A DNA stretch of 30,278 bases from a virus. Under the pieces are notes generated by a model. That model made no database searches and was not told the DNA's origin. It was given only the letters and a program-made list of their open reading frames with translations. The stretch is taken from IMG/VR virus record IMGVR_UViG_3300021963_000461, positions 1 through 30,278 of that record. One strand, 5' to 3'. Below, in pieces: positions 9,473 through 27,437 of the stretch. Position 1 is the first letter of the stretch, and every line of letters begins with the position of its first letter. A program made the position numbers and the translations under genes.

Positions 9473-10171
9473 ATGGCTCGCGGCACCCAGCTTTCCGCGC
9501 TGGTCGATGCCCTGCGGGCAGAGATCGGTGCTTCGACCAACGTGGCGATGGGAGTCAACTCCCTGCCGGCGTTGAAGCAGATCCTTAATCGCACCCAATC
9601 TTGGCTGTGGGAAAAGTTCGACTGGCCGTTCGCATATATCGAGCGAGACGAGCAAATGGTAAACGGCTCTCGCTACTACGGATTCGACCCCGAGATCGAC
9701 TTCGGTAGGATCACGGAAGCCCACGTCAAGTACTCGGACAGTTGGCGCAAGCTGGACTACGGCATCGGCACGGAGCAGTACAACTCATCCGACATCGCCG
9801 ACGGCGACAAGGAAGACCCTCCCACCCGCTGGCGTCATTACGAGGGCAACCAGTTTGAAGTCTGGCCCACCCCTTCCAGCAACGAGTGCGTTGTCCGGTT
9901 CAAGGCCATCAAGCGACTGCCGAAGATGGTCAACGACTCCGACGTTGCCTTGCTTGATGACAATCTGATCGTCCTGTTCGCGGCGGCTGAAATGCTTGCT
10001 CGGGCGAAGTCCGACGATGCCCAGGGGAAGATGAGTGCGGCCACCGAACTTTTCACCAAGCTCAAGGGTAGCGGCATCAAGAACGATGTCTTTGTGATGG
10101 GCGGCGGTCTTCCTGTCGAGACAGGCAGCTTCCTCAACGGAGCGCGTATCCTGCCCAGCAATCGGGTGTAA
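9473..10171 (+). CDS. Head-tail adaptor (tail tubular protein A, T7 gp11-like)
   Basis: A 232-residue protein expected to form the ring below the portal that joins head and tail nozzle. The opening MARGTQLSALVDALRAEIGASTN, followed by LPALKQILNRTQSWLWEKFDWPF, is typical of gp11-type adaptors. A beta region (SRYYGFDPEIDFGRITEAHVKYSDSWRKLDYG) and a C-terminal helix follow (LIVLFAAAEMLARAKSDDAQGKM). Size (T7 gp11 is about 200 residues) and position directly before the nozzle gene agree. The start lies 3 nt after the preceding stop. Confidence 0.85.
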   Translation: MARGTQLSALVDALRAEIGASTNVAMGVNSLPALKQILNRTQSWLWEKFDWPFAYIERDEQMVNGSRYYGFDPEIDFGRITEAHVKYSDSWRKLDYGIGTEQYNSSDIADGDKEDPPTRWRHYEGNQFEVWPTPSSNECVVRFKAIKRLPKMVNDSDVALLDDNLIVLFAAAEMLARAKSDDAQGKMSAATELFTKLKGSGIKNDVFVMGGGLPVETGSFLNGARILPSNRV

Positions 10172-10174
10172 TTT

Positions 10175-12835
10175 ATGGCATATATCGTCGTCGAGAACTT
10201 TTCAGCCGGCCTCGACACGCGGAGGCATCCCCTCACGGCTCGACCTGGTACGCTCCAGACTCTCAAGAACGCCCACGTCTCGCGTGGCGGTGAGATTGAG
10301 AAGCGAAAGGCTTTCGAGGCTATCAACTACGTCAACCCTAGTGTCTTTGTAAGGCCGTTCCACGGACTACAGGCTACGGCTGACAAGATCTACACTTTCA
10401 CGGACGGATGGAATCATCCGACCGAAGGTCGAGAGCTGCCTGTCGATGCAAACGGATTGTATGTGATGTTTCTCAAGCACCCAAGTTGGTCGCTTGGATT
10501 CACATATGGTCCTTACCCTACGCTAGAGGGAATCGTCTACAGCACCCTGTACGGCGGCAAGACGTTCGTGCTGGCGAAGTGGAGTACCGGAGAAGTCATT
10601 CCATATTACGACGGAGAGTTTCTTTCCGACTTCTATGTCGGCAAGACCCGCCAATGGATGACAACCCAGGCGAACGCTTGGGATGCTTTCTGCTCAAGCC
10701 TGGTGTGGAGCATCAAGGGAGGAACGTTCGGCACTACCACCACAGGCTGGGATGCCGAATCATCGAACATCCTTGCCGGCGGAAACAGCTTCGTGGATCT
10801 GATCGCCCCGGCAGACGTTGACTTCACGCCGTCTTTCACGGCTGACGAAGGCGTATCCGTATCGACTTCCACCATCACGGAATTCAAGGCCGGCGTCGCA
10901 GCCAAGAAGGCTTCCGGGGGCTTTTCCATCACTAGCGGTTCGCTAGGTACTCCTGCCTCCGCCACCCGCGCGCTTCAGTATGTCGGCGCGCTTGGTGCCG
11001 CGAAGATTATGAACATCTACTTCGATGAGCAGGAAGGCATCGACGAACCTGGAGGCTGGACCGGATTCGACGCTACAGGCTTTGCCAACACGTCCACCGG
11101 ATTGGTGGATCGAATCAATTACTACCTTACCAATTACAAGCGCAACCGAGACGGACTGGCAGACACCCCTGTCGGTGCTTCCGTCGCCACATACGCCTAC
11201 CCTCGCAGACAGCCGGCCATCGGATATATCAAACTGTTCGTGCCTAACACCAGCGGCACATACTTTGACGACCATGCCTCCAACAACGGCAAGGACATCG
11301 AGATTGAATTCGCCGCCGACCCTTCCTTGGTCCCGGGCATCAGTCAGCTGATCGACGTCAGCACCATCGCCCCAAGCGGTTTTGTCGCCGGCCGGTGGAC
11401 TGCGAAGTTCGCCTCTATGGCCGGAGGCGTCACCAATGCCGTCAGCCAGGTGCTGGTCGATGGCGTCGATGTGCTTGGTTCTCCGATGAAGTGGACCGGA
11501 TCGCACTCGATCACGATGACCAACATCGTGAACCAGATCAATACCTTCAATTCCTCCCCGGAATATACCGCGTCCTACGCCAACGACAAGGTGACGCTGA
11601 CTTCCGTCAACACAGGCGCAGACCAGAACGGACGAGTCATCGAACTGAAGGTCATCGGCAACATCGCTTCGGCCAACTACTCTTCCTTCACAGGCGGAGC
11701 TGACGCCGTCCCTGCCGTACGCAAGCGCGTACGCTACAGCATCGGTGGCGGAGCGACCTTCTACCCGGACAAGAGCGTCACGCTGATCGCAACCAAGGCT
11801 TTGGATTCTTCCAACCCTGTGTACTTCGGTGCGACCCGCGTAACGGATACCGTCCCTACTTCCGCCCTTACCTACAAGACCAAGGCTCACGTCGGAAGCG
11901 GTTCTAGCCTGTTCTTCTCCGGCGTGAACAACCCGAAGAAGTGGGGACAGGACGGCGTAGGCGCCGGCTTCATCAACATGTCCAATAGCTCCGGTGGCAA
12001 TGAAGTCATCACGGCTATCTCCCTATACCAGGGCAACCTGGCGGCCTTCAGCCGTCGCACGGTTCAGATCTGGAGCATCGATACCGATCCCGCGAACAAC
12101 CGCCAAGGCCAAGTTCTATCAAACACCGGGGCTTTCGGTCCACGAAGCGTTGTGTCCGTTGGAGACCTAGATGTCTTCTACCTTTCAGACTCTGGCGTAC
12201 GATCCCTACGCGCGCGAGACAGCTCCAATGCCGCCGTAGTCAACGATGTTGGTACGCCCATCGACAATCTCATCTTGGCTGAAATCAGCGGTATGACCTT
12301 CGACCAGAAGGCTTCCTGCCCTGCCGTCATCGAACCTATCGACGGACGCTACTGGGTCGCCATCGGAAACAAGATCTACGTCTACTCGTACTTCCCAAGC
12401 AGCCAAGTCGCCGCTTGGTCAACCTACGAACCTGGCCGTACCTTCACCGAATTCACCACCAAGGACGGCAAGGTGTACGCCAAGGAAGGCCAGTATGTCT
12501 ATGTCTACGGAGGTATGGACGGCAACAGCTACGACAGCGATGAAGTCGAAGTCATCCTTCCCTATCTAGACGGCGGCAAGCCGGCGCACATGAAGACCCT
12601 AATGGGTATGGATATGACTTGCGAAGGTGAGTGGTCTGTCGAAATCGGAATGGACCCCATCAGCCCGGAGGCTCGCGACCTAGTCGCCACGGTCAGCCAG
12701 CCCACCTTCACTCTTGGACGCATCCAGGCGTCCGGCATGGGGACGCACGTCGGCGTCCGTATGGTCAACCAGTCCTCCGGATACGCCCGGATTGCCAACC
12801 TCATCACCCACTTCGACTTCAATGAAAGTGACTGA
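10175..12835 (+). CDS. Tail nozzle (tail tubular protein B, T7 gp12-like)
   Basis: An 886-residue protein, slightly longer than T7 gp12, expected to form the hexameric nozzle through which DNA exits. The N-terminus VVENFSAGLDTRRHPLTARPGTLQTLKNAHVSRGGEIEKRKAF matches nozzle openings ('L-x-x-G-x-x...N-x-x...E-K-R'). The rest is beta-rich, with repeat-like turns (VYFGATRVTDT, VSVGDLDVFYLSDSGVRSLRARDSS, IDGRYWVAIGNKIYVYSYFPSSQ) of a beta-propeller-like platform. It follows the adaptor after 3 nt and overlaps the next gene by 14 nt. Assignment rests on N-terminal pattern, size and order. Confidence 0.82.
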   Translation: MAYIVVENFSAGLDTRRHPLTARPGTLQTLKNAHVSRGGEIEKRKAFEAINYVNPSVFVRPFHGLQATADKIYTFTDGWNHPTEGRELPVDANGLYVMFLKHPSWSLGFTYGPYPTLEGIVYSTLYGGKTFVLAKWSTGEVIPYYDGEFLSDFYVGKTRQWMTTQANAWDAFCSSLVWSIKGGTFGTTTTGWDAESSNILAGGNSFVDLIAPADVDFTPSFTADEGVSVSTSTITEFKAGVAAKKASGGFSITSGSLGTPASATRALQYVGALGAAKIMNIYFDEQEGIDEPGGWTGFDATGFANTSTGLVDRINYYLTNYKRNRDGLADTPVGASVATYAYPRRQPAIGYIKLFVPNTSGTYFDDHASNNGKDIEIEFAADPSLVPGISQLIDVSTIAPSGFVAGRWTAKFASMAGGVTNAVSQVLVDGVDVLGSPMKWTGSHSITMTNIVNQINTFNSSPEYTASYANDKVTLTSVNTGADQNGRVIELKVIGNIASANYSSFTGGADAVPAVRKRVRYSIGGGATFYPDKSVTLIATKALDSSNPVYFGATRVTDTVPTSALTYKTKAHVGSGSSLFFSGVNNPKKWGQDGVGAGFINMSNSSGGNEVITAISLYQGNLAAFSRRTVQIWSIDTDPANNRQGQVLSNTGAFGPRSVVSVGDLDVFYLSDSGVRSLRARDSSNAAVVNDVGTPIDNLILAEISGMTFDQKASCPAVIEPIDGRYWVAIGNKIYVYSYFPSSQVAAWSTYEPGRTFTEFTTKDGKVYAKEGQYVYVYGGMDGNSYDSDEVEVILPYLDGGKPAHMKTLMGMDMTCEGEWSVEIGMDPISPEARDLVATVSQPTFTLGRIQASGMGTHVGVRMVNQSSGYARIANLITHFDFNESD

Positions 12836-13311: not shown

Positions 13312-13608
13312 ATGTGTACCCCTGTAAACACCGGAGGCTTTAATGTGCTTGGCGATATGAGGCGAGAGGCTAATCGCGTCCGCGACGAATCGTATACGAA
13401 CGCATTTATGTCTCCCAGGGGAGACAACGGAATCCAGAAGCAGGCTCAACAGCCCACGCCTTCTCGCTTTCAAATCGGCACCCTTACTAACCCTATGGCA
13501 AACGCGATGCCTGGAATGGCCGTAGCTCGCGTGGCACCGCAGATCTTCGCCAACGGACCTATCAAAATGAACGCTTCTAACAAACAGACCGGGAGGGTCG
13601 TCTCCTAA
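13312..13608 (+). CDS. Small Met-Cys-starting virion-region protein, unknown
   Basis: A 98-residue protein starting MCTPVNTGG at 13312, 4 nt after the gp13-like stop. An in-frame ATG at 13222 would overlap that gene by 86 nt and lose the shared MCTP start. It is polar and Gln/Asn/Pro-rich (NGIQKQAQQPTPS, GTLTNPMANAMPGMAVARVAPQ) with no domain I recognise. Its first 14 bases, ATGTGTACCCCTGT, are identical to those of the gp14-like gene at 14586. It is translationally coupled to the next gene through a TAATG overlap. The context suggests a minor internal or tail protein. Confidence 0.65.
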   Translation: MCTPVNTGGFNVLGDMRREANRVRDESYTNAFMSPRGDNGIQKQAQQPTPSRFQIGTLTNPMANAMPGMAVARVAPQIFANGPIKMNASNKQTGRVVS

Positions 13609-14231
13609 TGTGCTTCGGCGGAGGAGGCGGTGACGGCGGTGCGGCCCAGGCTCGCGCCGATGAGATGGCTCGCCAGGCTCGCATCAAGCAGGGCGTTGGC
13701 CGGATCAACGAACAGTTTAACCAGTTCGACGACAGTTTCTACCAAGGTCGCAAAGACGCCTATCGGAACTTTGCCACCCCCCAGGTCAACGATGCCTATA
13801 AGCAAGTCAGCGATCAGCTGGCCTTCAGCCTAGCCCGAACCGGCCTTGACCAGTCAAGCGAATCCGCCCGACAGCAGGGTGTGCTGATGCGAGATAACGC
13901 CCTAGCTCGCCAGCAACTTGCCGAAGGTGCGACGACTGAAGCCACCAAGGCTCGCCAGGCCGTTGAAGACCAACGCAACGCCCTCATTCAACAGGTCAAT
14001 ATGACCAGCGATCCGGAGATGGCCGCGCAGAACGCTCTTCGTTCCGCTGGTATCCTTGAACAGCAACAGGCTTTCAACCCTGTAGCCAACCTGTTTGCCA
14101 ATACCACCGGGATGCTTGGCGCCGCCCAGCAGGGTGGATATTACTCCAAGAATGGCCGCGGCCTTGAACCTTTCCGCGAGTTCGTTGGTTTGGGTTCTAA
14201 CAAAGACAACCGAGTTGTTCAAAGCAGATAA
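13608..14231 (+). CDS. Conserved podovirus virion-region protein (207 aa)
   Basis: It begins MCFGGGGGDGGAAQARADEMARQARIKQGVGRINEQFNQFDDSFYQGRKDAYRNFATPQV. The pattern 'G-x-x-x-I-x-x-x-F-x-x-F-D-D-x-F-Y-x-G-R...Y...Y-A-T-P-Q' followed by helical LAFSLARTGLDQSS is shared by a protein found before gp14-like genes in many podoviruses. Its role is not established; an internal core or connector protein is likely. The body is helical, and the C-terminal part NPVANLFANTTGMLGAAQQGG is hydrophobic but short. The start overlaps the previous stop (TAATG). The Met-Cys start is shared with three neighbours. Confidence 0.8.
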   Translation: MCFGGGGGDGGAAQARADEMARQARIKQGVGRINEQFNQFDDSFYQGRKDAYRNFATPQVNDAYKQVSDQLAFSLARTGLDQSSESARQQGVLMRDNALARQQLAEGATTEATKARQAVEDQRNALIQQVNMTSDPEMAAQNALRSAGILEQQQAFNPVANLFANTTGMLGAAQQGGYYSKNGRGLEPFREFVGLGSNKDNRVVQSR

Positions 14232-14235
14232 CTTT

Positions 14236-14586
14236 ATGTGTACTCCTCAAATTCAACAGCTTGCCCAGTTTGTCGCAGAACAACGCGCTCTTGACGCCGG
14301 AATTCGCCCCGAAGACGCGGCGGCCAATGGAGGCCAGTATGGCGTACTTCCGCGTCAGCCTGGACAGAGCATTGCTGATGCGGTAGCCCAGGCCAGTCAG
14401 CCTGTTAATCAAGGTCCGCGTGTTCAGCATATGATGTATCAAAAGGCGGAACAGATGCCGCCTCGCGTTATGATGCAAGCCCTTCCTATTCCGTCACAGC
14501 CCCCAATGCAGCCTATTCAGCCTGTGCGTTCACCTACTGTTGGTGAGTTGCTTGGCATCCCCCCTGGCTCTACTCCTGGAATCTAA
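14236..14586 (+). CDS. Small Met-Cys-starting protein, Gln/Pro-rich, unknown
   Basis: A 116-residue protein starting MCTPQIQQLAQFVAEQRALDAG at 14236, 4 nt after the previous stop. The in-frame start at 14095 lies inside the previous gene and would remove the shared MCTP start. The second half is rich in Met, Pro and Gln (MMQALPIPSQPPMQPIQP) and ends PTVGELLGIPPGSTPGI, suggesting an extended linker. No known domain is visible. The stop overlaps the next start (TAATG). It probably belongs to the internal-protein set. Confidence 0.65.
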   Translation: MCTPQIQQLAQFVAEQRALDAGIRPEDAAANGGQYGVLPRQPGQSIADAVAQASQPVNQGPRVQHMMYQKAEQMPPRVMMQALPIPSQPPMQPIQPVRSPTVGELLGIPPGSTPGI

Positions 14587-15389
14587 TGTGTACCCCTGTT
14601 GCCATCGCCCTATCCCTAACGGCGGCAGGATCTGCCGCCCAAGCAGCTGGCGCTCGTCGAGCGGCCAAGGCTATGGAAGGTGCGCGGGTTGCTGAAAGCA
14701 TCCGCCAGAAGGGATTCCAAGACGAAGCAAACAAGGTCGTCGATGATTCTGTCGGTAAGTCCGGCAGGGCGTCTACTGACGCATCGATGAAGGCCGCAGC
14801 CGAAGCCAGAGCCGCTGATGCGGCCGCTGCTACCGCTGAAGTCCGAAAGCCTATCGAGGCGACTGGAGAAAACCTGGCTGGCGACACCGCTGGAAACAAG
14901 GTTATGGCTACCGAAAGCGATCTACAGGCCGCTCGTAACCTTGGTTATGCCGGACAGCAGGGAGCCGCAAAGGCTAACCTTCTGTCGTTCAACGACGTCA
15001 CGTTCCAGAACGCGATCAACAACATCCGCGCTGGACAGCAACTCAACACCGTCGGCAACTTTATGCGAGGTTCTGCCGGGGTTCTTCCTGTCGAGCTGGA
15101 AGCCGCGTCTCGCAAGGGCGACAACCTAAAGACTCTTGGTACTGTACTTTCTACGGCTGGATCTGTCGTGGGAATGGGTGCCGGTGCCGGTTGGTGGGAT
15201 AAGGCCGCCAATGCCCCTACCACCCTTGCCAGCATGCCTAGTGGTGCTTCTGTCACGAATCCCAACATTCTTAACCTTGGCAATACCCCTTCTTTCCAGC
15301 TTCAAGACGCATTGAACAACTGGAATATCGGTAAGTTCAAGAACCTTGTTCCTAGCGGACCTACAACCTTCCCTGGCTTTAAAATCTAA
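14586..15389 (+). CDS. Internal virion protein B (T7 gp14-like)
   Basis: A 267-residue protein that begins MCTPVAIALSLTAAGSAAQAAGARRAA. This is the Met-Cys then Ala-rich hydrophobic helix then long Ala/Lys helix layout characteristic of podovirus gp14-like internal core proteins (T7 gp14 also starts Met-Cys). T7 gp14 is ejected into the cell at infection and contributes to an outer-membrane channel. A second Gly/Ala-rich hydrophobic stretch (TLGTVLSTAGSVVGMGAGAGWW, about 179-200) may also interact with membrane. Its neighbours are the two large proteins in the gp15/gp16 positions. Start and stop are both TAATG overlaps. Confidence 0.75.
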   Translation: MCTPVAIALSLTAAGSAAQAAGARRAAKAMEGARVAESIRQKGFQDEANKVVDDSVGKSGRASTDASMKAAAEARAADAAAATAEVRKPIEATGENLAGDTAGNKVMATESDLQAARNLGYAGQQGAAKANLLSFNDVTFQNAINNIRAGQQLNTVGNFMRGSAGVLPVELEAASRKGDNLKTLGTVLSTAGSVVGMGAGAGWWDKAANAPTTLASMPSGASVTNPNILNLGNTPSFQLQDALNNWNIGKFKNLVPSGPTTFPGFKI

Positions 15390-16834
15390 TGAATCGCGTA
15401 AACGTCCAAGGCGACCCTTACTGGGCGCAAGCCACCCAGAACATCGCTGGCCTGTTCGACCCGAAGGCTCAAGCCCAGGGTGCCGCGTTGCTCGCTCAAA
15501 CCGATAACTACAAGGCACAGGCCGCGCACAACCAGGCCAAGGCAGATCTTATCGGTGATCGCCGGAAAGCCCTTACTACGGAAGCCTTGCTCAAGGCTGG
15601 TTACACCCCTCGCCAGATTGCGGCTTGGCAAGCAACGCAGACCGACAATATGGCTGATGCCTTCAAGGGTATTCAGACGGATGAAGGAACCCAGCTTATT
15701 CTTAAAGGCGAGCGTCCTATCGCTGGGTCTATCCTTCTAGGAGGAAACTCAAGCCAAGTCGCAGACGCGATTATCAAGAGTCGCTTGGCAGGACTTGGCC
15801 CAGACGACACCTTTAACGCTCCTATGGCCGCATCGTTGGCCGCAGACCCGAAGGGCATTGATGGAAACCTCGTGACTCTCACCCCGCAAGGCTGGACTAT
15901 TGGTGGTGTTACAGAAGCCGGAAGGGTCTTACAGAACAAGGTAATTACCGATACGAACGAATCGAAGGCTAAAGTTGACCTTACGAATACCAGGGCTGAT
16001 GCCGTCTCTGACCTTGCTGCCAAGAAGGGTGAAACGGAGGAAGCGCGTCGCCAGCGTATTATGAACCAACTTGCTATCGATGATGAAACAGCTGCCGCCG
16101 TCATCCGTAGCCACGATGCTCGTACGAATCGAACCAATGCCGCTACTGGAAACGACAAGGCCAAGGCTGACGCCGCCGTAAAGTCTACCGAAACCAGGAC
16201 TTCCGCCGCTGTTGAAGCCGGGAAGAAAGACCCAAAAGCAACGGCTCTTGATACGGCTAACAAGCAAGCCACCGCACGAAAGAACATCGAGCGTAGCTTT
16301 GACGCAACCTACGCCCAACGCACTAACGGAGGCAAGGATTGGGCGCTCGTAGATCCAGCAGAAAAGCGAAGCATCGTTGACTGGGCTACCCAGGCTCTTG
16401 AGGAGTACAATGGAGACATGGTGGCTGCTATGGATGCAGCCGAGAAGGCTCACAATCTGACTGGCGGATCAACCGAAGGTGAAACTGGATGGTTCTTCAA
16501 GGACAAGGACGGAGTCCTTCGCCTTAACGGCTTCAAACCCGCCAAGTACCAGAAGAAGTCTGGGTCTCCTGTGGCCGACGCGGTCAAGGCTGGAGCCGCC
16601 CCTGCCGCTGAAGCCCCTGTCCCGAAGATTAAGGCTAATGAAGCCAAACTCCCCGCTACTGGTGCTGAAGCTGGCACCGCCCAGCCTGTCCCTGCCACCG
16701 GAGCTGAAAAGGCTGCTGAAGCTACCGTCCCGGCTAATATCCCAAGGGTTACTACGGAAGAAGAGTACGCCAAGCTCCCGGTAGGTACTGTTTATGTTGC
16801 TCCAGACGGTAAGACCTATACAAAAGGTGAATGA
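15389..16834 (+). CDS. Putative internal virion protein C (gp15 position), helical
   Basis: A 481-residue, strongly helical and Ala/Lys-rich protein (AALLAQTDNYKAQAAHNQAKADLIGDRRKAL). A structured region around 330-400 contains DWALVDPAEKRSIVDWATQALEEYNGDMVAAMDAA. An Ala/Pro/Glu linker follows (about 400-450). The C-terminal motif TTEEEYAKLPVGTVYVAPDGKTYTKG (about 454-480) is a short domain seen at the ends of various phage proteins. T7 gp15 is larger (about 750 residues), so this is a positional, not sequence-level, assignment. The stop overlaps the ATG of the giant gene by four bases (ATGA). Confidence 0.65.
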   Translation: MNRVNVQGDPYWAQATQNIAGLFDPKAQAQGAALLAQTDNYKAQAAHNQAKADLIGDRRKALTTEALLKAGYTPRQIAAWQATQTDNMADAFKGIQTDEGTQLILKGERPIAGSILLGGNSSQVADAIIKSRLAGLGPDDTFNAPMAASLAADPKGIDGNLVTLTPQGWTIGGVTEAGRVLQNKVITDTNESKAKVDLTNTRADAVSDLAAKKGETEEARRQRIMNQLAIDDETAAAVIRSHDARTNRTNAATGNDKAKADAAVKSTETRTSAAVEAGKKDPKATALDTANKQATARKNIERSFDATYAQRTNGGKDWALVDPAEKRSIVDWATQALEEYNGDMVAAMDAAEKAHNLTGGSTEGETGWFFKDKDGVLRLNGFKPAKYQKKSGSPVADAVKAGAAPAAEAPVPKIKANEAKLPATGAEAGTAQPVPATGAEKAAEATVPANIPRVTTEEEYAKLPVGTVYVAPDGKTYTKGE

Positions 16835-19800
16835 GCAACTTCTGGGAAAAGGATAAACCTGTACAGGCGGATCAGCCCCCAGTTCAAAAAGTAAACTTCT
16901 GGGAAAAGGACAAGCCTGTCGAACAGGCTGTTCCTGCTCCTGTTGCGGAGGTCGCGCCTGTCGCACAGCCACAGGCAAAGAAGGCCAACCTGGCCGACCT
17001 TGTAGCCAACAACCCATTCTCAAGCCCTCCTGGAGAAAAGCCCATTCCTCCGCTGCTTGAGCGTCCAGAGTACAAGAACCTATGGCCGGAAACTTCTTAT
17101 TTGAGGACTCCAGAACCGGCTTACACGTTGGATATGCCGGACGGACAGGAAGTCCTCATCTCGCTTGATGGCAAGTCGATGACTGGTGCTGTCTACAACA
17201 AGAAGGACAACACCTTTGATTTTGAGTACGAAGAGAAACAAGATCCCGTAGTTCCGTCTGGCGTAAGTGCTGGTGGCCGAGGATTCTACGCTCCTCCCAC
17301 TAATGTAACCAAGATCAAGAAGGTTAGTCCTAATGAAGTGGTCGGTTACACCAACGCTGCTGATAAGCTTGAGTCTGCCAAGATTGCCTTTGGACGTAGC
17401 ATCATCCCTACTGCCTCTGGCTTTACTGGATTTGCTGGCGGAGCCGCCCTTGCAACTGCGATACTGGGCGCACCGGAGACGTTTGGTGCTTCTCTTATTC
17501 CGCTTCTGGCTGGTGCTGTTACTGGATTCGGAACTGGCATGGCTGGTCAGAGTTTCCAAGACCGGATGTTCCCCTTGGACAAGGCACAGCAACTTGCCTT
17601 GGATTCTAATCCGAAGATTGCCGGTGCTGCTGGTTTTGCTCCCGCTTTGATTGCCGCTCCTACCAGTCCTCGCACCTGGATGAACCTAGCAAGCAAGACT
17701 CCTGGCGTAGCCGCCAAGGCCGCGACTCAACTCGGTTCTAATGCCGTGATGATGGGCGCTCTTGGTACTGGCAATGACGTTGGAGCTAACTTGGTAGCCG
17801 GAAAGCCAGCCCTTCAAGGGGTCGGTCTAGGTAGCATTTTGCACCATACTGGTACTGGTCTTCTGCTCGGTCACCCGAACAAGATTGGTCGCGTAATGGA
17901 AGCACCTGGCCGCTTTACTGCGAACGCTGCCCTTATGCCATTCGGCAAGGGTGACTTTAGATCCCCTCTGCCTGGGAAAATTACTTCCCTTTCTGATCTA
18001 GAAACCGCAGCCGCCGAAGCCCAGGCCCAAGGCCAGCCTGCTGCCGCTCCTGCTCCTGCCGCTCCTGCTCCTGCCGCTCCTGCTCCTGCCGCTCCTGCTC
18101 CTGCCGCTCCTGCTCCTGCTCCTGCCGCAAGGCCAGCGGGATCAGTACCTCCTCGTCCTCGGTATGACGATTCCTACCGTGGAAGAGTCGCCGAATACAC
18201 GGCTGCTTGGCAAGCCTGGGATGCTCAATACGGACAAACGCATTGGTCTGACGGAACCCCAAAGACCGGATCTGCTGCTCCCGCGCCTGCTGCAAACGTA
18301 GAACCATACCCAGCTATGCCAGATCGTGCCACCAGCACACAGGCACAGATGGACGCTTATCTGCTTGCCGGACAGGAATGGACGAAGAAGTACGGCCAAA
18401 CGCACAACCTTGACGGAACTCCCAAGCCTCCCAAGCCGGTAAACCCAGCAGCTCAAGCCCCTGCGGCCCCCGCTGCTCCTGCTGCTCCTGCTGCTCCTGC
18501 TGTCGCTCCTGCGACTCCGAAGCCTGTTGCCGAAGCCCCGAAGCCTACTGGCAATGTCTTTGAACTTGGTGTGGCAGATCTCACCGAACGCATCCGATTC
18601 ATCAAGGGAGAACTTGGTCGTCGCCAGGCCGAGGTTAAGGCTGCTGCTGAAGAAGGTCGCGTTGACCCGGAAGGACAAGGTCGAATCGAGCGTCTTAACA
18701 AGTCTTTGGCTGAAGCCGAAGGTGCGCTTGAACGGCTCAAGGATCGTAACGCTCCTCGATCTGAACTTCCTCCTCCCGCCAAGGAGCCGACAACGGCTGA
18801 AGTTCTGGCACAGAAGAAGGCCGAGTTCGACAAGCTTACTCGCCAGCTTGAAGCCGCCCAGCGCAGCCAGCGTTCGATGAAGGGTGGCGACGAACAGATT
18901 GCCCTGCTAGAAGCCGAACATGAGGTTGCTTCTACCGCTTACGAAGAAGCCCTGGCCGCGCACGAACAGGCTCAACGCAACGGCGGTAATCCGCCTCCTG
19001 CCGCCCCTGCCCAAAAGCCTGTAGCACCAAAGCCTGTCACCCCGGTAGCCCCTGCTCCTGTTGCCCCTGCTCCGAAGCCTGTTACCCAGGCGCAGCCTCC
19101 TGCCCCAACGGCCAAGCCGAAGAAGGAACCGGCTGGAGTAACCTCCGCTCGCGAGCAACTCGCCAAGCTGGAAGCTGGCGGCAACGCCAACAGCCCCCAA
19201 GCCAAGGCTCGCCGCAAGTACATCCGCAAGTGGGAGAAGGACAACGGACTTCCGTACAGCGTTGAACTTGAGGCTCCGAAGGCTCCGACTGCCGAAGCCC
19301 CTGCTCCTGCCGTTGAGGCACCGAAGCCCAAGGCTCCTGTCGCTACGGAACCCCCTGTCGCCGATACCCCTGTTGAGCCTGTGGCTCTGGCTCCAAAGCC
19401 CAAAGCCACAAAGCCTGCGTTAGGCCCTCTACAATCCATCGTTAAGCCAGACGGAACGACCGTCACGGAGCCTGGCAACGGTCCGAAGAACCGAGGACGA
19501 GCCACCCACGCCGTGGTCGATGAGCGCGGCTCGGTCAGTTGGCTGACCAAGGAGAACACCGATGCCCTGGTGAAGGAGTACGGAGGCTACGAAGGCCAGT
19601 TCATCATCCACGACCTTGCCACCGGCAAGAAGATCGAGGTAGGCAAAACCACCCCTGTCGAAGACCCTGCCGACAACTATGACCCTGTCACGGAGCCGAA
19701 CCCTCGGGAGAACCCGAAGGACGTAGCAGATCGTGAAGCCCTAACTAGACAGGAAGCACCAGCAGACACCACGGAGCCTACGGCCAAGGAAGTCGAGACC

Positions 19801-22800
19801 CAGACCACAAAGAACATCATCAAGGGTCTGGAAGACCAGATCGCAAAAAGCGAGAAGGCCGGACGTGGCGACAGCAAACAGGTCAAGAAGCAGCGCGCCG
19901 CCCTTGAGGTTGCGAAGAAGAAGCTGGCCGAACTGGAAGGCAAGAACGATGAGCCTGTCTCCGAGCCTACGGATGAAGCCGAACCCTCTCCTTACGAGCG
20001 TGAGAAACGCCAGGCAGAGCAGCACCCTGTAGACGACCCCGCCAACGGATGGCGTCCGGAGACCACCCAGGAGGAAAGGGTGTGGCTGAACTCCGATATG
20101 ACTGCCAGCGGACGAGGCAACGAGTTCGCCGTAGGAGACTACCTTGGAGAAGCCCGCAAGGCTCTTGAGTCTGGCGACAGGGCTGGCGCTCTTGAGATGG
20201 CGAAGCAGGCAAAGGGCCTCGCTGAAACCCTACAGGGCTGGGCGCGCCGCAAGGCGAAAGGCTACCTCGACAATTTTGAAGCCAAGACTGGCATCAAGAT
20301 CGGAGAGTCCATCGCCGCAGAGGAGGTCGATTACTTTACGAAAAAGCCCATCAAGGGCGTCCCTTTCCCCGAGGAGGGAGCGGCCCCGAAGTCCGAGCCT
20401 GTAGAGGCTCCGAAGGAAGACAACGTCTCCGTGCCTTCCGACCCAGACGCCACCATCGGTGCGGTCGAACGCATCGCCGGCGTTAAGCTCTCGAAAGGTG
20501 CGAAGGCTGAACTAGGCATCCGATCCGAGGAAGGTCTCCAGCCGGACTTCATCGACGAAGGCGGTATCAAGTCCCTCAAAGATCACCTCAACGATGTTAA
20601 GGAGCGTCTTGAGACCTCCCTTGATGCGGCTCGCACGTCTGGCAGGGATGGAGCAACTCCGTCCGAACAGCGAAAGGCGGTCAAGGAAGCCAAGGAAGCC
20701 ATCAAGGCTGTCGATGACGCCATCGCCAAGCTCGAAGCAGAACAGACCGTTGCTCCGAAGGAAGCCCCCAAGTCTCCTGCCGTAGAAGCCGCAGAGAAAC
20801 AGGTCGAAACCATCAATGACAGGCTTGCTGAACTTGAGCGCACCAAGAAGGGTGACTCTCCAGAGGCTGATGCTCTACGCGCCCAGCGAGACAAGCTTCA
20901 GACCACCATCGACGCCCAGAAGCCGGACTCCCCAGACGTGCTGTCGAAGGCCGAGAAGTGGGCTGACGACACTATTAGGGAAATCAACAGGCAGGGTCGT
21001 CAGCGTTCTGGACTCGATCCAGAACTCCTGGCCGCATACGCAGTCAAGGGAGCGGTCAAGTTCGCTCGTTCGCTAAAGGACTTCAAAGAGTTCTCGCGAG
21101 AGATGGTGAACGAGTTCGGTAACGGCATCCGCCCTCACCTAAAGGCCATCTTCGACAAGGCTCAAGAGCCTGGCCTAGCCAGGGAGTATGCCGAACAGCA
21201 GCAAGCCAGAAACGCGGCTAACCGCCCCGAGCCGGATCTCGCTGGAGAGTCTGAAAAGATGGCTCAACTTCGCGCCGAAGAGCGTGACAATAACCGGGAA
21301 CTTGCCGAAGGGCGTAAGCCTGTGTTGTCGGCTGGTGGTCGAACCTGGAGGTCTGCCATAGACTCGCCTGTCGTCGCGTTCTTCAAGCACATCGGCATGC
21401 GCATGCGTACGATTGCTGACAACAACCCCCAGTCTGAAACGGCACAGAAGCTGGTAAATGATTTCTCTCTGATCCCAGGAACCAAAGAGACCGGTCCCGA
21501 CTTCAACAACGCTCACTCCAACGAGAGAACCAGGTTCTTAAACAAGTTCTCAATCGCACTTGGACCTGTGTTGAAGGACATGCGTAAGATGAGTGCCGCT
21601 GACTTGGTCAAGTTCAACGATTTGTTCATCCAAGCCTTGGAAGGTCGTATTAAGGTTGGAGGAGAAACAGGAGAGGCCGTTAAACGAGTTCAAGAAGTGA
21701 TGGATGAACTTCACGCATACGGCAAGGAAGCCGGTATCGATATGGGCAAGGTCACCGATTACTTCCCTCGCATGATCAACGCCGAAATGGTGATGGCTGA
21801 CAGGGCTGGGTTTGAAGAAGCAGCCGCTCGCGCTTACGAGCGTCAATGGGAACGCCTTCAGAAGGAAGCAAAAGACAACCAGTCTGAATTTGGTTTTGCC
21901 GAAGAAACCACCCAGCGTCCTAACTTCAAGGAGATGGCCCGCAAGTGGGCAGACGCAATCGAACTAAACCAAGAGGGTTTTGATTTTGAGCGTGGAATCT
22001 TTGACGAAGGCAACGCTGCTACGAAGGAGGACTTCCAGAAGAACAGAGAATTCACCAAGGAAGAAGCAGCAGAGTTTGACGCCTTCCGCCAGAAAGACTT
22101 TGAAACCATCTTGACTAATCATATCGGGGCTATGGCAAGACGAGCAGAGGTAGCCAGACGACTTGGTGCGGACGGAATGGAGTGGACGAAGATTGCGTCA
22201 AAACTTGCCGAAGAAGGCGTTTCTGCGAAAGATATCGCACAGCTCAAGAACGACATTCAGTCAAACCTTGGCATTGGCGAAACCCTGCTTTCAGAGGCTG
22301 GTCAGAATGCGCAAAACACTTACAACCTCGTATCAACCACGGCCTTCCTAAAGCTGACCGGTCTTCTCAACGTGGCCGAACCAGGCTCCATCGGTATCCG
22401 CGAGCGAGATCCTGTGCAGGGGGCGAAGGCGATGATCTCGAACTTGTTCCGCATTCGCAACGTCCTTACCAGAATGTCTCCCGGCGAGGCGAAGTCGGTC
22501 AAGACGGAGATTGAGCGAATCTACGGAAAGGGTCACGACCTTGCATCCGCCTTGGCTATCGAACTTGGAATCAACCACATCGACCACGGACTAGGATCGT
22601 TGAGTTCTGGCTTCCATCTTGATGCCGGAACGGACGGTGGAGGACAAATCCGACGCCTTAACGACAATGTGTACAGGTTGTATGGCATCCACGCCACCGA
22701 AGTCGCAAAGCGTGAGACTTCGATCAAGCACGGCATGCAGTTTATCGACAAGAGCATCCAGTTCTTTGAGGGCAACTCTAACCTTCAGCGCATCTTCCGT

Positions 22801-23763
22801 GCTATGGGCAAAAATGTTGACGCTCAAACCCTCGCCAAAGATCGCATTATGGAGCTTGGGATCAAGGAGGCTGACGTTCCTGCGTTTATGGACTTTGCCA
22901 AGACCCTTCGCGGAATGGACTCCAATCAGCAACTCAAAGCCATCATGTCTGACAGTCCGATGGCCGCTGAATACAGGAAGGCTCTTCAGATCTTCAACAA
23001 GCAGTCTTCGGTACAGGCTACCAGGTCTTCACGGCAGGAAATTGCCAACCAACTTCCTATCGGAAAGGCGCTATTCCAGTTCGCAACCTATACCAACGAA
23101 TGGGCATCCCAGCATGGGCGCTACATGCTTGAGACGGCCAAGAAGGTTCGCAACTCGGACGGTCGCTACAACGCATCCGAACGCCTCCTTGCCGCCGGCG
23201 TAGCCCCTGCGTTCGCAATGGCTACGGCTGGAATGTTTGGCATCCGCCACATCATCAACAAAATCACCGGATTCCAGTTTGAGGACTCTGAAGTGTTTGG
23301 AGTTAAAGTCCCGGCTTGGGTAAAGTCTATGGCCGACGCGGTGGTCTACACCGGCATCCTTGGCCCAGCTGAATTGGCTTACAAATGGATTGTCAGAGAT
23401 CAGCCGCCTGGTGGCTTGCTTTCAAGTTGGATCAACAGCTCGACCAAGGCTTTCGCCAGAGTCAAAGAAAACCCGGAATCCAACGCAGCGCAGAAGAACG
23501 TCGCAAAGATTGGCTACAGAAGCGGGTTCGTCCCTGCCGCCAATGCCGCTCTGGCTACCGCATCTGGAGCCGCTGACTTAATCCCTAGCCCTATCTTGAG
23601 GGGTGCGACAAAGCTGGGAGCCGCTGGCCTAGCCCAGGTGATTGCCAACAACCGAGTAGAAGACGCGACTGCAACGGCAATTGCAGGGGAGGATAAGAAG
23701 GGTACGAAGAACCCCCCGAAGCCTACCCCTCCCAGACCTCCGTCCCCGCCTACCCCTAGGTAA
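16831..23763 (+). CDS. Giant (2310 aa) internal/ejected virion protein with repeats and polyvalent-like C-terminus
   Basis: It occupies the gp16 position, but at 2310 residues is far longer than T7 gp16 (1318). In order: a duplicated NFWEKDKPV motif (about 3-11 and 23-31); a Gly/Ala-rich hydrophobic region (about 186-245) that could enter membranes; Pro/Ala linkers (about 404-435 and 545-575); two KYGQTH/DGTPK repeats (about 468 and 521); several ~40-residue charged helical hairpins separated by Pro/Ala linkers (about 580-645, 655-715, 770-805, 990-1035, 1320-1370); and an uninterrupted globular or helical part from about 1490 to 2285 containing YFPRMIN. This last part recalls large polyvalent-protein-associated regions of phages and mobile elements. 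No lysozyme or transglycosylase motif is evident. The C-terminus is Pro-rich. Probably ejected with the genome; this is inference. Confidence 0.7.
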   Translation: MSNFWEKDKPVQADQPPVQKVNFWEKDKPVEQAVPAPVAEVAPVAQPQAKKANLADLVANNPFSSPPGEKPIPPLLERPEYKNLWPETSYLRTPEPAYTLDMPDGQEVLISLDGKSMTGAVYNKKDNTFDFEYEEKQDPVVPSGVSAGGRGFYAPPTNVTKIKKVSPNEVVGYTNAADKLESAKIAFGRSIIPTASGFTGFAGGAALATAILGAPETFGASLIPLLAGAVTGFGTGMAGQSFQDRMFPLDKAQQLALDSNPKIAGAAGFAPALIAAPTSPRTWMNLASKTPGVAAKAATQLGSNAVMMGALGTGNDVGANLVAGKPALQGVGLGSILHHTGTGLLLGHPNKIGRVMEAPGRFTANAALMPFGKGDFRSPLPGKITSLSDLETAAAEAQAQGQPAAAPAPAAPAPAAPAPAAPAPAAPAPAPAARPAGSVPPRPRYDDSYRGRVAEYTAAWQAWDAQYGQTHWSDGTPKTGSAAPAPAANVEPYPAMPDRATSTQAQMDAYLLAGQEWTKKYGQTHNLDGTPKPPKPVNPAAQAPAAPAAPAAPAAPAVAPATPKPVAEAPKPTGNVFELGVADLTERIRFIKGELGRRQAEVKAAAEEGRVDPEGQGRIERLNKSLAEAEGALERLKDRNAPRSELPPPAKEPTTAEVLAQKKAEFDKLTRQLEAAQRSQRSMKGGDEQIALLEAEHEVASTAYEEALAAHEQAQRNGGNPPPAAPAQKPVAPKPVTPVAPAPVAPAPKPVTQAQPPAPTAKPKKEPAGVTSAREQLAKLEAGGNANSPQAKARRKYIRKWEKDNGLPYSVELEAPKAPTAEAPAPAVEAPKPKAPVATEPPVADTPVEPVALAPKPKATKPALGPLQSIVKPDGTTVTEPGNGPKNRGRATHAVVDERGSVSWLTKENTDALVKEYGGYEGQFIIHDLATGKKIEVGKTTPVEDPADNYDPVTEPNPRENPKDVADREALTRQEAPADTTEPTAKEVETQTTKNIIKGLEDQIAKSEKAGRGDSKQVKKQRAALEVAKKKLAELEGKNDEPVSEPTDEAEPSPYEREKRQAEQHPVDDPANGWRPETTQEERVWLNSDMTASGRGNEFAVGDYLGEARKALESGDRAGALEMAKQAKGLAETLQGWARRKAKGYLDNFEAKTGIKIGESIAAEEVDYFTKKPIKGVPFPEEGAAPKSEPVEAPKEDNVSVPSDPDATIGAVERIAGVKLSKGAKAELGIRSEEGLQPDFIDEGGIKSLKDHLNDVKERLETSLDAARTSGRDGATPSEQRKAVKEAKEAIKAVDDAIAKLEAEQTVAPKEAPKSPAVEAAEKQVETINDRLAELERTKKGDSPEADALRAQRDKLQTTIDAQKPDSPDVLSKAEKWADDTIREINRQGRQRSGLDPELLAAYAVKGAVKFARSLKDFKEFSREMVNEFGNGIRPHLKAIFDKAQEPGLAREYAEQQQARNAANRPEPDLAGESEKMAQLRAEERDNNRELAEGRKPVLSAGGRTWRSAIDSPVVAFFKHIGMRMRTIADNNPQSETAQKLVNDFSLIPGTKETGPDFNNAHSNERTRFLNKFSIALGPVLKDMRKMSAADLVKFNDLFIQALEGRIKVGGETGEAVKRVQEVMDELHAYGKEAGIDMGKVTDYFPRMINAEMVMADRAGFEEAAARAYERQWERLQKEAKDNQSEFGFAEETTQRPNFKEMARKWADAIELNQEGFDFERGIFDEGNAATKEDFQKNREFTKEEAAEFDAFRQKDFETILTNHIGAMARRAEVARRLGADGMEWTKIASKLAEEGVSAKDIAQLKNDIQSNLGIGETLLSEAGQNAQNTYNLVSTTAFLKLTGLLNVAEPGSIGIRERDPVQGAKAMISNLFRIRNVLTRMSPGEAKSVKTEIERIYGKGHDLASALAIELGINHIDHGLGSLSSGFHLDAGTDGGGQIRRLNDNVYRLYGIHATEVAKRETSIKHGMQFIDKSIQFFEGNSNLQRIFRAMGKNVDAQTLAKDRIMELGIKEADVPAFMDFAKTLRGMDSNQQLKAIMSDSPMAAEYRKALQIFNKQSSVQATRSSRQEIANQLPIGKALFQFATYTNEWASQHGRYMLETAKKVRNSDGRYNASERLLAAGVAPAFAMATAGMFGIRHIINKITGFQFEDSEVFGVKVPAWVKSMADAVVYTGILGPAELAYKWIVRDQPPGGLLSSWINSSTKAFARVKENPESNAAQKNVAKIGYRSGFVPAANAALATASGAADLIPSPILRGATKLGAAGLAQVIANNRVEDATATAIAGEDKKGTKNPPKPTPPRPPSPPTPR
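18046..18126 (+). repeat. 15-bp tandem repeat encoding Ala-Pro linker
   Basis: The unit GCTCCTGCTCCTGCC is repeated exactly four times (18046-18105), followed by a 21-bp variant. It encodes APAPA blocks inside the giant protein. A second low-complexity run with a GCTGCTCCT unit lies near 18470-18510. Such nearly perfect repeats are prone to length change. Confidence 0.9.
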
Positions 23764-23807: not shown

Positions 23808-24143
23808 ATGCCCAACATTAACACCGACGCCCTGGCCGACGAGCTGCACACGAACCTAGGTCTAAAGACCGAAATGGGGCGGGAATACCTCCGCGCCATC
23901 CTGCCTCTGGCGATCCTTATGGATAGCAAGCAGCAGGACTACGGAAGCAGCAACATCAGCCTCAACGGCGAACTGGGCGTGATGGTACGCACCCAGGACA
24001 AGGTCAGTCGCATCCGCAATCTCCTCACCAAGGAGATGAAGGGTGATGCTCCGGCTAACAACGAGTCAATCAACGACTCTTGGTCTGACCTCGCGAACTA
24101 TGGCGTCATCGGCTTGCTTCTTCGGAACGGCAAGTGGCGCTAA
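23808..24143 (+). CDS. DUF1599 / nucleotide-modification-associated domain 1 type protein
   Basis: A 111-residue protein with the DUF1599 (Nmad1) signature: K-x-x-DYGSSN...GVMVRTQDKVSRIRNLL (about 41-73) and NESINDSWSDLANYGVIGLLL (about 84-104). This all-alpha domain resembles MazG/dUTPase-like pyrophosphatases and is proposed, from genome context in phages, to be tied to nucleotide or DNA modification; a reaction has not been shown to my knowledge. The acidic residues of the D-L-A-N-Y and E-S-I-N-D stretch would be the metal-binding set. The N-terminal 35 residues form a helical extension. It is the first gene after the virion operon, with a 14-bp hairpin ending 2 bp before its ATG. Confidence 0.8.
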   Translation: MPNINTDALADELHTNLGLKTEMGREYLRAILPLAILMDSKQQDYGSSNISLNGELGVMVRTQDKVSRIRNLLTKEMKGDAPANNESINDSWSDLANYGVIGLLLRNGKWR

Positions 24144-25972: not shown

Positions 25973-26263
25973 ATGCCGACTCTTGAGGTCGCTCTGGTCG
26001 GTACGCTGTTCATTGCGGATGCCGTTTGTGTACGGCTCTGGATGATAATGGAAGACATCCGTCTGGCTCTGACAGACCCGGGTGCGATGGCTATCATCGT
26101 CACCGAGGACTCGATCAAGAGTGATAGCGCGCGAGTAGAGAACCAACTGAACACAGCTCGCTCGGCCTTTGAGGATACCGAGCGAGCTACTGCGGTGTTC
26201 AGCGTATGTCTGGCTCTGATTACCCTAGCCCTGCTCTTGAGAATGGTCAGAGCCAAGCGTTGA
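25973..26263 (+). CDS. Small two-TM membrane protein, lysis block, unknown
   Basis: A 96-residue protein (MPTLEVALVGTLFIADAVCVRLW...) with an N-terminal membrane segment (about 5-25), a 45-residue polar middle (DSIKSDSARVENQLNTARSAFEDTERA) that may form a coiled coil, and a second segment near the C-terminus (AVFSVCLALITLALLLRMV). I take ATG 25973, 4 nt after the holin stop; GTG 25949 would overlap the holin gene. Two TMs around a helical middle could fit a holin partner or i-spanin-like protein, but I recognise no family. Its last 39 bases overlap the 3' end of the opposing integrase gene. Confidence 0.6.
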   Translation: MPTLEVALVGTLFIADAVCVRLWMIMEDIRLALTDPGAMAIIVTEDSIKSDSARVENQLNTARSAFEDTERATAVFSVCLALITLALLLRMVRAKR

Positions 26264-27310
26264 CCTTTGCAGGGTGCGCCAGTTCACCGCACCACGGAGG
26301 TGGTCTGGACAATGGTGGGCATATACTCTTACGACTGTAGCCAGCGTATCCCCAAGAACACCGGCTACCTCAAACAACGGAACTCCAGCCTGTGCTGCAA
26401 GGGTTGCCCAGGTGTGCCGCAGCGTGTGTGGAGTCACGTCTTCGTAGCCCTTTCCTGCCGCCATTATGAGGGCGTCGAAATGATGCTGAATTGAGTACGG
26501 AGTATCCATAACCCACTCGCATTCCGGAAGCCGTTCATCGTTAGCCCTAGCAAGCACCGAGTAGCAAAGGTCTGACATAGGTACGGCAACACGCCTTTTC
26601 TTGGTGCGCTTGTTTCCGTCGTTCTGGTAGTGGATCAACCTACGGCCTAGGTCTACTTGGCTCCACCGAAGAGACAGGACGCTGTTCTTACGAGCAGCCG
26701 TCTCTGATGCCACCACCACGAATCGGTAGAGTCTGGACAGACGCTCGCCTGGGTAAAGTTCAGAGGCTATACGGACAAATGTATCAAGCTGGCTTTCCGT
26801 CAGCCACAGATCCTTTGGAGGAGGGGCATCCGGAAGGATGATGGTCGGAGCATCCTTTGCGTCAACGCGCTTGAATGTGACTGCGTGGTTGATGGCCGCC
26901 ACAAGGCAGTTCAACTCACGACGGAGAGTGCCGTCTCCGACCTTCCTTCCGTTGACCTTGCCAGCCTTGCGATCATCCCTGTATTTCTTCATCACGCTCG
27001 GAGTGAGGGCGGACACTTCGTATGATCCAAGCCCTGCGGTAAGCACCTTGATGCAGTCTTCCTGCCTCTGCTTATCAGTCACGTTCTCATCGACATGCTC
27101 CTCCGAGTATGCCGACAAAACCTGGCCTACGGAGGCTTGCTTGGGCTTCGGTGCGGTCACCTTGAGGAGGTAAGTGGCGAGGGCTTTCTCTGCCTCACCC
27201 TTGTCCTTGGTGTTGCAAGAAACACGCTTGGTGACTCGGTCTTGAGTCCATCTGATTTCGTAGTTTCCTGCCGTATTTACGGCCAATTTCGGTGTGTTCG
27301 GAATTCTCAT
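26225..27310 (-). CDS. int: Tyrosine recombinase / phage integrase
   Basis: A 361-residue integrase from the Met at 27310 (MRIPNTPK); the upstream Met at 27340 would overlap the control region. It has an N-terminal arm-type beta domain (NYEIRWTQDRVTKRVSCNT), a helical core-binding domain (about 60-165) and a C-terminal catalytic domain. Visible catalytic residues: Arg207 (SETAARKNSVLSLRW), the basic beta-hairpin (NKRTKKRRVAVP, Lys about 234-238), His295 and Arg298 (HTLRHTWAT) and the nucleophile Tyr330 (VRVYAHH). The usual LGH motif reads LGD (Asp321), an unusual change at the second histidine/tryptophan position. It catalyses site-specific insertion and excision of phage DNA. Its 3' end overlaps the lysis-block gene. 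Confidence 0.92.
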   Translation of the reverse strand: MRIPNTPKLAVNTAGNYEIRWTQDRVTKRVSCNTKDKGEAEKALATYLLKVTAPKPKQASVGQVLSAYSEEHVDENVTDKQRQEDCIKVLTAGLGSYEVSALTPSVMKKYRDDRKAGKVNGRKVGDGTLRRELNCLVAAINHAVTFKRVDAKDAPTIILPDAPPPKDLWLTESQLDTFVRIASELYPGERLSRLYRFVVVASETAARKNSVLSLRWSQVDLGRRLIHYQNDGNKRTKKRRVAVPMSDLCYSVLARANDERLPECEWVMDTPYSIQHHFDALIMAAGKGYEDVTPHTLRHTWATLAAQAGVPLFEVAGVLGDTLATVVRVYAHHCPDHLRGAVNWRTLQRSTLGSDHSQEQG

Positions 27311-27437
27311 AGTTTTGTTGGGCAGTAACAGAAGTCCCACATAATGTAGGTGTCGTCAAGCATTGAAGATTTTTCACTTTGTGCGTTGACCTACGATCCG
27401 CGCTCCTCCAACTTGTACCACATCGGAACCCAACGCC
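27311..27437. promoter_or_regulatory. Integrase/regulator divergent control region
   Basis: 127 bp between the divergent integrase and HTH-like genes. It contains a rightward candidate promoter TTGGGC (27318-27323), 16 bp, CATAAT (27340-27345). A second possible -35, TTGACC, lies at 27386-27391, with only a weak -10 near 27409. A 15-bp palindrome overlaps the first -10. This is the expected place for lysogeny control signals. Confidence 0.5.
27336..27350. promoter_or_regulatory. Imperfect 15-bp palindrome overlapping a -10, operator candidate
   Basis: CCCACATAATGTAGG: the outer CC/GG and inner ACAT/ATGT arms are symmetric, with one mismatch. It covers the candidate -10 CATAAT (27340-27345), so bound protein would block rightward transcription. 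Confidence 0.45.

Follow-up and report, generated by a model that had tools for sequence, protein, structure and literature searches.

We analyzed a 30,278-base virus record (IMG/VR IMGVR_UViG_3300021963_000461, positions 1 to 30,278), referred to here as the window, which carries a very large gene at 16831-23763 on the plus strand. The gene begins with ATG and encodes a putative gp16-type ejection protein of 2,310 amino acids (aa), hereafter the giant, with homologous giants in the same slot of related phages. The frame occupies 22.9% of the window. At this base composition, 2,310 open codons would occur by chance with a probability of ~1e-38, and the homologous frames of relatives are likewise stop-free. 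Therefore, the single open frame across about a quarter of the window, pointed out in a preliminary description made from the sequence alone, is real. The giant's ATG overlaps the stop codon of an upstream 481-aa gene (ATGA, 16831-16834), which suggests that the two genes are translationally coupled. The giant is the last gene of a podovirus head, tail, and ejection operon, in which PHROG matches, synteny, and hhalign give the order terminase large subunit, portal, scaffold, major capsid protein (MCP), adaptor, nozzle, 207-aa protein, gp14-like protein, 481-aa protein, and giant.

The C-terminal ~790 residues of the giant (1495-2286; 21313-23688, plus strand) form an all-helical domain that, by profile and fold comparison, is homologous to the body, or hub, of T7 gp16 (internal virion protein D). 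A profile of this domain aligned by hhalign to T7 gp16 and five of its relatives with a probability of 96.9 and an E value of 1.4e-10 over 579 columns, covering T7 residues 528-1206; the reversed control gave a probability of 0.2 and an E value of 0.3. An AlphaFold2 (AF2) model of residues 1480-2290 was all-helical with moderate confidence (predicted local distance difference test score 63.6; predicted template modeling score, pTM, 0.63). In a Foldseek search of viral models (BFVD), giants of uncultured phages and of KPP25 (1e-11) ranked first, followed by internal virion proteins of T7-like phages at 1e-7 to 1e-4, including those of Vibrio phage VP2, LKA1, RSB3, LIMElight, and PSTRCR_120 at E values of 1e-7 to 1e-6. 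Within this domain, family members also match PHROG 30152 and further groups annotated as virion structural protein. A sequence search of the PDB with the body profile gave chance matches only, and plain Foldseek of the body model against the PDB gave nothing at E<0.001. VIA-align and profile-profile comparison were needed. The top four VIA-align chains were all podophage core-protein chains: 9jyy_I (T7, Z 13.5, 292 residues), 8vb2_A (PhiM1, 13.3), 7eyb_I (T7, 12.1), and 9vvp_L (E1004, 11.1), whose gp16-type identity we took from chain length, residue range, and the respective papers; the next chain scored Z 5.4. Since Z scores of up to 13 can arise by chance with helical models, we counted the fold result jointly with the hhalign result. 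Together, they identify the C-terminal domain as a gp16-class body. The preliminary description had likened this ~800-residue part to polyvalent-protein regions; the conserved domain is real, but it is the T7 gp16 body. Profile-profile homology, fold comparison, and gene order support its further proposal of a virion protein related to, and much larger than, T7 gp16.

The giant itself has no significant PHROGs or Pfam match, and tblastn against 50,697 phage records returned no match. Among annotated phages, Microcystis phage Mae-Yong1326-1 (46%) and Rhizobium phage RHph_N65 (40%) come closest by MCP, and an MCP search recovered 64 IMG/VR contigs as relatives (L numbers below denote individual sequences in the analysis). 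Contigs that reach the slot nearly always show a gene of ~350-670 aa and then a very large gene, and full-length giant frames in relatives range from 1,741 to 3,656 aa. A profile built from six C-termini matched 18 of 26 records, Mae-Yong1326-1 at 1.8e-8; some of the unmatched records are contigs that stop short of the gene's end. After iteration, 27 of the 27 giant sequences or fragments reaching the C-terminus aligned over the domain (window residues ~1495-2286). In a few relatives, a short protein that lacks the body takes this slot: it has 708 aa in RHph_N65, with a lysin gene after it, 769 aa in a Rhizobiales prophage, where a lysozyme-like gene comes next, and 1,000 aa in L144. No N-terminal homology was found for these proteins. 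A peptidoglycan-hydrolase-like gene adjoins the giant's slot in some relatives (L003:10883-11569, L134:20102-21004, and L135 at about 16920-18437).

Further homologs came from a tblastn search with L126, which led to Pseudomonas phages KPP25, phiR18, CRPAP1904, and YMC17/07/R4900a and Aeromonas phage phiA008. KPP25 ORF088 (2,009 aa) and the phiA008 giant (2,050 aa) share the C-terminal body (hub hidden Markov model E values of 5e-57 and 5e-27), and the terminase of these phages is also related. They differ from the window's giant in lacking a tandem N-terminal tag, and phiA008 carries an SNase domain at its extreme N-terminus and an HELGH zincin motif. ORF38 of Mae-Yong1326-1 (2,441 aa) shares the slot, the homologous body, a tandem tag (DPWAVV, twice), and syntenic structural genes but differs in having two HExxH zincin-like sites and an LPD1 domain in its insertion. 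Its label, "peptidoglycan transglycosylase," has no Pfam support. The Mae-Yong1326-1 genome (L002, OP028995.1; 72% GC) encodes podovirus tail genes and a gp16-type giant, whereas a 340-nm tail was reported; the genome that was sequenced may not be that of the particle that was imaged.

In T7 gp16, residues 1-156 form a transglycosylase and two transmembrane helix regions, TMH I and TMH II, span residues 243-410 and 1119-1290 (PMC8954989); its C-terminal portion extends into the cytoplasm and possibly clamps DNA (PMC8954989; PMC11784390). The giant is hydrophobic and Gly/Ala-rich at residues ~128-400 and ~2098-2272. By hydropathy, residues 154-363 (17290-17919, plus strand) are the positional counterpart of TMH I and residues 2098-2272 (23122-23646, plus strand) that of TMH II. 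A possible membrane-entering region had been noted earlier; the hydrophobic regions are present, but no 21-aa stretch of the giant exceeds a Kyte-Doolittle value of 1.47, and no classical transmembrane helix is predicted. The first region is homologous only to L116, L117, and L118. Most giants show two such regions, one rich in Gly/Ala and close to the N-terminus, the other towards the end of the C-terminal domain; the exceptions by our hydropathy measure are L129 and KPP25, which lack the first, and L122 and L123, which lack the second. There is no detectable lytic transglycosylase, as the preliminary description had already remarked: the record contains no SLT match in a search whose positive control worked, and the giant has no Pfam match at E<=1. 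In ICP3 and other proteins annotated as internal virion protein D, the alignment with T7 gp16 starts only at T7 residue ~144-218. As these accepted members have no match to that region, we judge the N-terminal transglycosylase not to be a defining feature of the gp16 class.

Between the first hydrophobic region and the body lies an insertion of ~1,100 residues (364-1494; 17920-21312, plus strand) composed of Pro/Ala linkers and shuffled modules, with segments that match different siblings. P+A makes up 44-50% of several 70-aa bins in the stretch from residue 351 to 770, in agreement with the long Pro/Ala linkers described before. A module with a YGQTH..DGTPK motif (residues 437-535; 18139-18435, plus strand) is repeated three or more times in siblings, and residues 1040-1190 (19948-20400, plus strand) form a module shared with L116 and L118 (phmmer, 1e-36). 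Repeated helical hairpins had also been proposed; self-BLAST of the giant gave no significant internal repeat, but several charged helical segments can be seen by eye, and the 437-535 module does repeat in the siblings.

The insertions of siblings contain recognizable domains. L124 has RadC and HExxH, and the insertions of L116, L117, L119, L122, L123, and L125 have HExxH; overall, this zincin motif occurs in 8 of the 28 giant sequences or fragments searched. GNAT-like domains are found in L116, L117, and L121 (below or at the Pfam cut-off), DUF7178 in L121 and L108, an ART-PolyVal-like domain in L005 (below the cut-off), and LPD1 in a Devosia prophage as well as in Mae-Yong1326-1. From these enzyme domains in the same insertion, we infer a delivery platform in which cargo is exchanged, the insertion being the cargo region that would be delivered with the channel protein. 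The earlier suggestion that effector functions are carried into the host fits the family, given the LPD1, RadC, zincin, GNAT-like, ART-like, and SNase domains of siblings, but finds no support in this copy, where neither an enzymatic domain nor HExxH was detected.

The giant begins with two copies of NFWEKDKPV, at residues 3-11 (16837-16863, plus strand) and 22-30 (16894-16920, plus strand). The duplication is tandem (shuffle p=0.002), and the motif occurs nowhere else in six frames. Among hub-bearing giants with an N-terminus, 17 of 25 have a duplicated N-terminal motif (shuffle p<=0.008); these p values carry no correction for multiple testing, and related giants do not count as independent cases. 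At least eight different tag sequences occur (FWEKDKP, NPFDAFD, LEPLD, DPWAVV, GLFDDLIPG, LSDAELF, WWEQD, and ANDF). By sequence comparison, then, most giants begin with a tandem-duplicated tag of 7-11 residues, which is newly described here; in the literature searched, the tag strings had no mention in a phage context and are seemingly undescribed. Tag class tracks the portal (area under the curve 0.80) and the 481-aa gene (0.77) better than the body (0.62) or the MCP (0.53), and this covariation, based on few contigs and confounded by phylogeny, identified no partner. A DNA scan of IMG/VR for NPFDAFD gave 42 stretches, 33 of them with the motif in a frame of 180 aa or more. It fell within the first 45 residues in 29 of these 33 frames, with a second similar motif alongside in 25. 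About eight of the 25 doubly tagged proteins belong to the giant family; the remainder are large proteins with no other relationship to it, several of them preceded by a gene of ~400-500 aa. Apart from one family member, NPFDAFD-tagged proteins of other phages had no match to gp16 or hub profiles. Tandem NPFDxFD-type motifs thus start many large, otherwise unrelated phage proteins (IMG/VR contigs L148-L189). We offer, as a speculation unlikely to hold, that the tandem tags are a docking signal of giant ejection proteins, by which cargo-bearing giants would be loaded into virions, with the tag and not the body serving as the address. With two tag copies per chain, each of four gp16-like chains could bind at two sites of the underlying ring, which offers eight equivalent ones, and the double tag would thereby resolve the 4:8 mismatch of the T7 core.

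The end of the operon is mosaic. In a comparison with contigs 3300043469_000382 and 3300042384_001249, identity is 94-95% for the portal, whereas it drops near the giant: the portal value is approached by the MCP (88-92%), the nozzle (90-91%), the 207-aa protein (94-95%), and the 267-aa protein (85-88%), but the 481-aa protein is only 32-35% and the gp16 body 24% identical; the N-terminal tag is at 67-86%. Segments of the giant also have different closest siblings: L005/L120 for the tag, L117 for the hydrophobic region, L116 for residues 395-535, L120 for 565-830, L117 and L128 for 925-1035, L116/L118 for 1040-1190, L008 for 1190-1300, and L116 for the body. The low identity of the last two genes behind conserved virion genes, together with these mixed relatives, marks the 481-aa gene and the giant gene as a recombination hotspot in the sequences compared, newly described here.

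The genes upstream of the giant are all on the plus strand. They encode the terminase large subunit (3253-4857; PHROG 38, E 9.2e-115), the portal protein (4873-6969; PHROG 12082, E 3.9e-12), a putative scaffold protein placed by its position between portal and MCP and by syntenic homologs (7001-8023), the MCP (8036-9079; PHROG 9953, E 1.6e-48), a tail adaptor or tubular-A-like protein (9473-10171; PHROG 10775 and synteny), and an 886-aa tail nozzle or tubular-B-like protein (10175-12835) homologous to the "packaged DNA stabilization protein" of Mae-Yong1326-1. Relative to RHph_N65, the nozzle protein has a ~245-residue insertion at about residues 160-405. The 207-aa small cassette protein (13608-14231) has syntenic homologs in Mae-Yong1326-1 and RHph_N65. 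The 267-aa protein (14586-15389), with an MC- N-terminus, is T7 gp14-like, aligning to the gp14 family by hhalign with an E value of 1.2e-4 and a probability of 56% (reversed control 0.5). A Met-Cys start is common to the 207- and 267-aa proteins (13608-15389), most relatives, and T7 gp14, and the second-position Cys seems conserved. The 481-aa cassette protein (15389-16834) holds the position of T7 gp15, in line with the conserved ~350-670-aa gene that precedes giants; its AF2 model was poor (pTM 0.31), and the fold search was uninformative. Directly downstream of the giant, a 111-aa protein (23808-24143) matches PF07659 (nucleotide modification associated domain 1, E 1.6e-6). A tyrosine integrase is encoded on the minus strand (26225-27340; PF00589, E 4.8e-15), and the phage is therefore probably temperate.

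Compared with T7 gp16 (Autographiviridae), the giant has the homologous body (T7 ~528-1206), the all-helical fold, and the place of last gene in the ejection cassette. At positions matching those in T7 gp16, one hydrophobic region precedes the body and another lies close to its end, though the giant has no strong transmembrane segment. Unlike T7 gp16, the giant has a tandem FWEKDKP tag and a flexible segment instead of an N-terminal lytic transglycosylase, a ~1,100-residue insertion before the body, and 2,310 rather than 1,318 residues, and the capsid genes recombine and diversify far more slowly than its own gene does. Polyvalent proteins (Iyer et al. 2017) are likewise giant, modular, encoded with late structural genes, and probably injected, and siblings share their LPD1, RadC, ART-like, and zincin domains. 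In that class, two or more effector or LPD domains stand on one polypeptide, and a zincin is common but not universal; siblings pair LPD1, RadC, or SNase with a zincin, whereas the window copy has no Pfam domain and no detected polyvalent enzymatic or LPD domain. A search for LPD38 gave no match, with an equally silent control, and was uninformative. By the description in PMC12633501, to which the likeness is limited, the N4-type virion RNA polymerase is also a giant ejected virion protein with ejectosome and enzyme roles, but no polymerase domain was found in the giant.

We consider it highly probable that the giant is a gp16-class ejection protein of a probably temperate podovirus, with an insertion of exchangeable modules. 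Several observations weigh against this. The window cassette has no separate peptidoglycan-hydrolase-like gene that we could find; no homology to T7 TMH I was detectable in hydrophobic region I; hhalign of the 481-aa protein to gp15 was negative, so that in the gp14-gp15-gp16 comparison only the 267-aa gene and the giant find counterparts; "structural protein" for KPP25 ORF088 is an annotation; and Pfam, PHROG, and motif searches recognized no HExxH and no enzymatic or LPD domain in the window copy. This last point, with the low-complexity Pro/Ala composition, would also suit an insertion that is purely structural, in which linkers and helices would occupy the capsid or extend the channel and no host-directed function would be delivered. 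Such a role is possible but somewhat doubtful, as modules 437-535, 925-1035, 1040-1190, and 1190-1300 show conservation, with their nearest relatives in different siblings, and siblings have enzyme domains at the same place.

The LPD1, RadC, zincin, and ART-like domains of siblings, and a late structural operon like that of phage polyvalent proteins (PMC5512222), could instead indicate a virion-packaged polyvalent effector outside the ejection channel. We find this quite improbable, since the one part conserved throughout the family is the homolog of the T7 gp16 body and the giant lies in the gp16 slot, downstream of a gp14-like gene. A tail tape measure protein of a long-tailed phage would draw on Mae-Yong1326-1, which has a 2,441-aa homolog and was reported with a ~340-nm flexible tail (PMC9503304), about the length expected of a ~2,400-residue ruler. 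However, no tail-tube or tail-terminator gene was recognized, podovirus-type adaptor and nozzle genes are present, and the giants of related phages vary from 1,741 to 3,656 aa. Furthermore, KPP25-like phages, which have a 2,009-aa homolog, have a 20-nm tail, as described for CRPAP1904 of the KPP25 genus (PMC13340246). With a tail this short in a homolog-bearing genus and with podovirus tail genes, we rejected the tape measure reading as extremely unlikely.

As a gp16-class ejection protein, the giant would, by analogy with T7, be packed in the core above the portal. It would leave the capsid ahead of the DNA, cross the envelope, and insert near the inner membrane with its body projecting into the cytoplasm. 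The insertion would sit just before the body, in T7 the part that ends on the cytoplasmic side, and the giant may thus have a part in bringing phage proteins into the host as infection begins. These results place a previously unnamed group of phage proteins of 1,700-3,700 residues in the T7 gp16 class and point to a site of insertion at which cargo is exchanged. The tandem tag is a simple candidate for a virion-loading signal, and if it is the address, the giants would be a natural modular platform for protein delivery. If ejection holds true, exchangeable protein modules would be delivered together with the channel protein, joining the concepts of "ejection protein" and "polyvalent effector."

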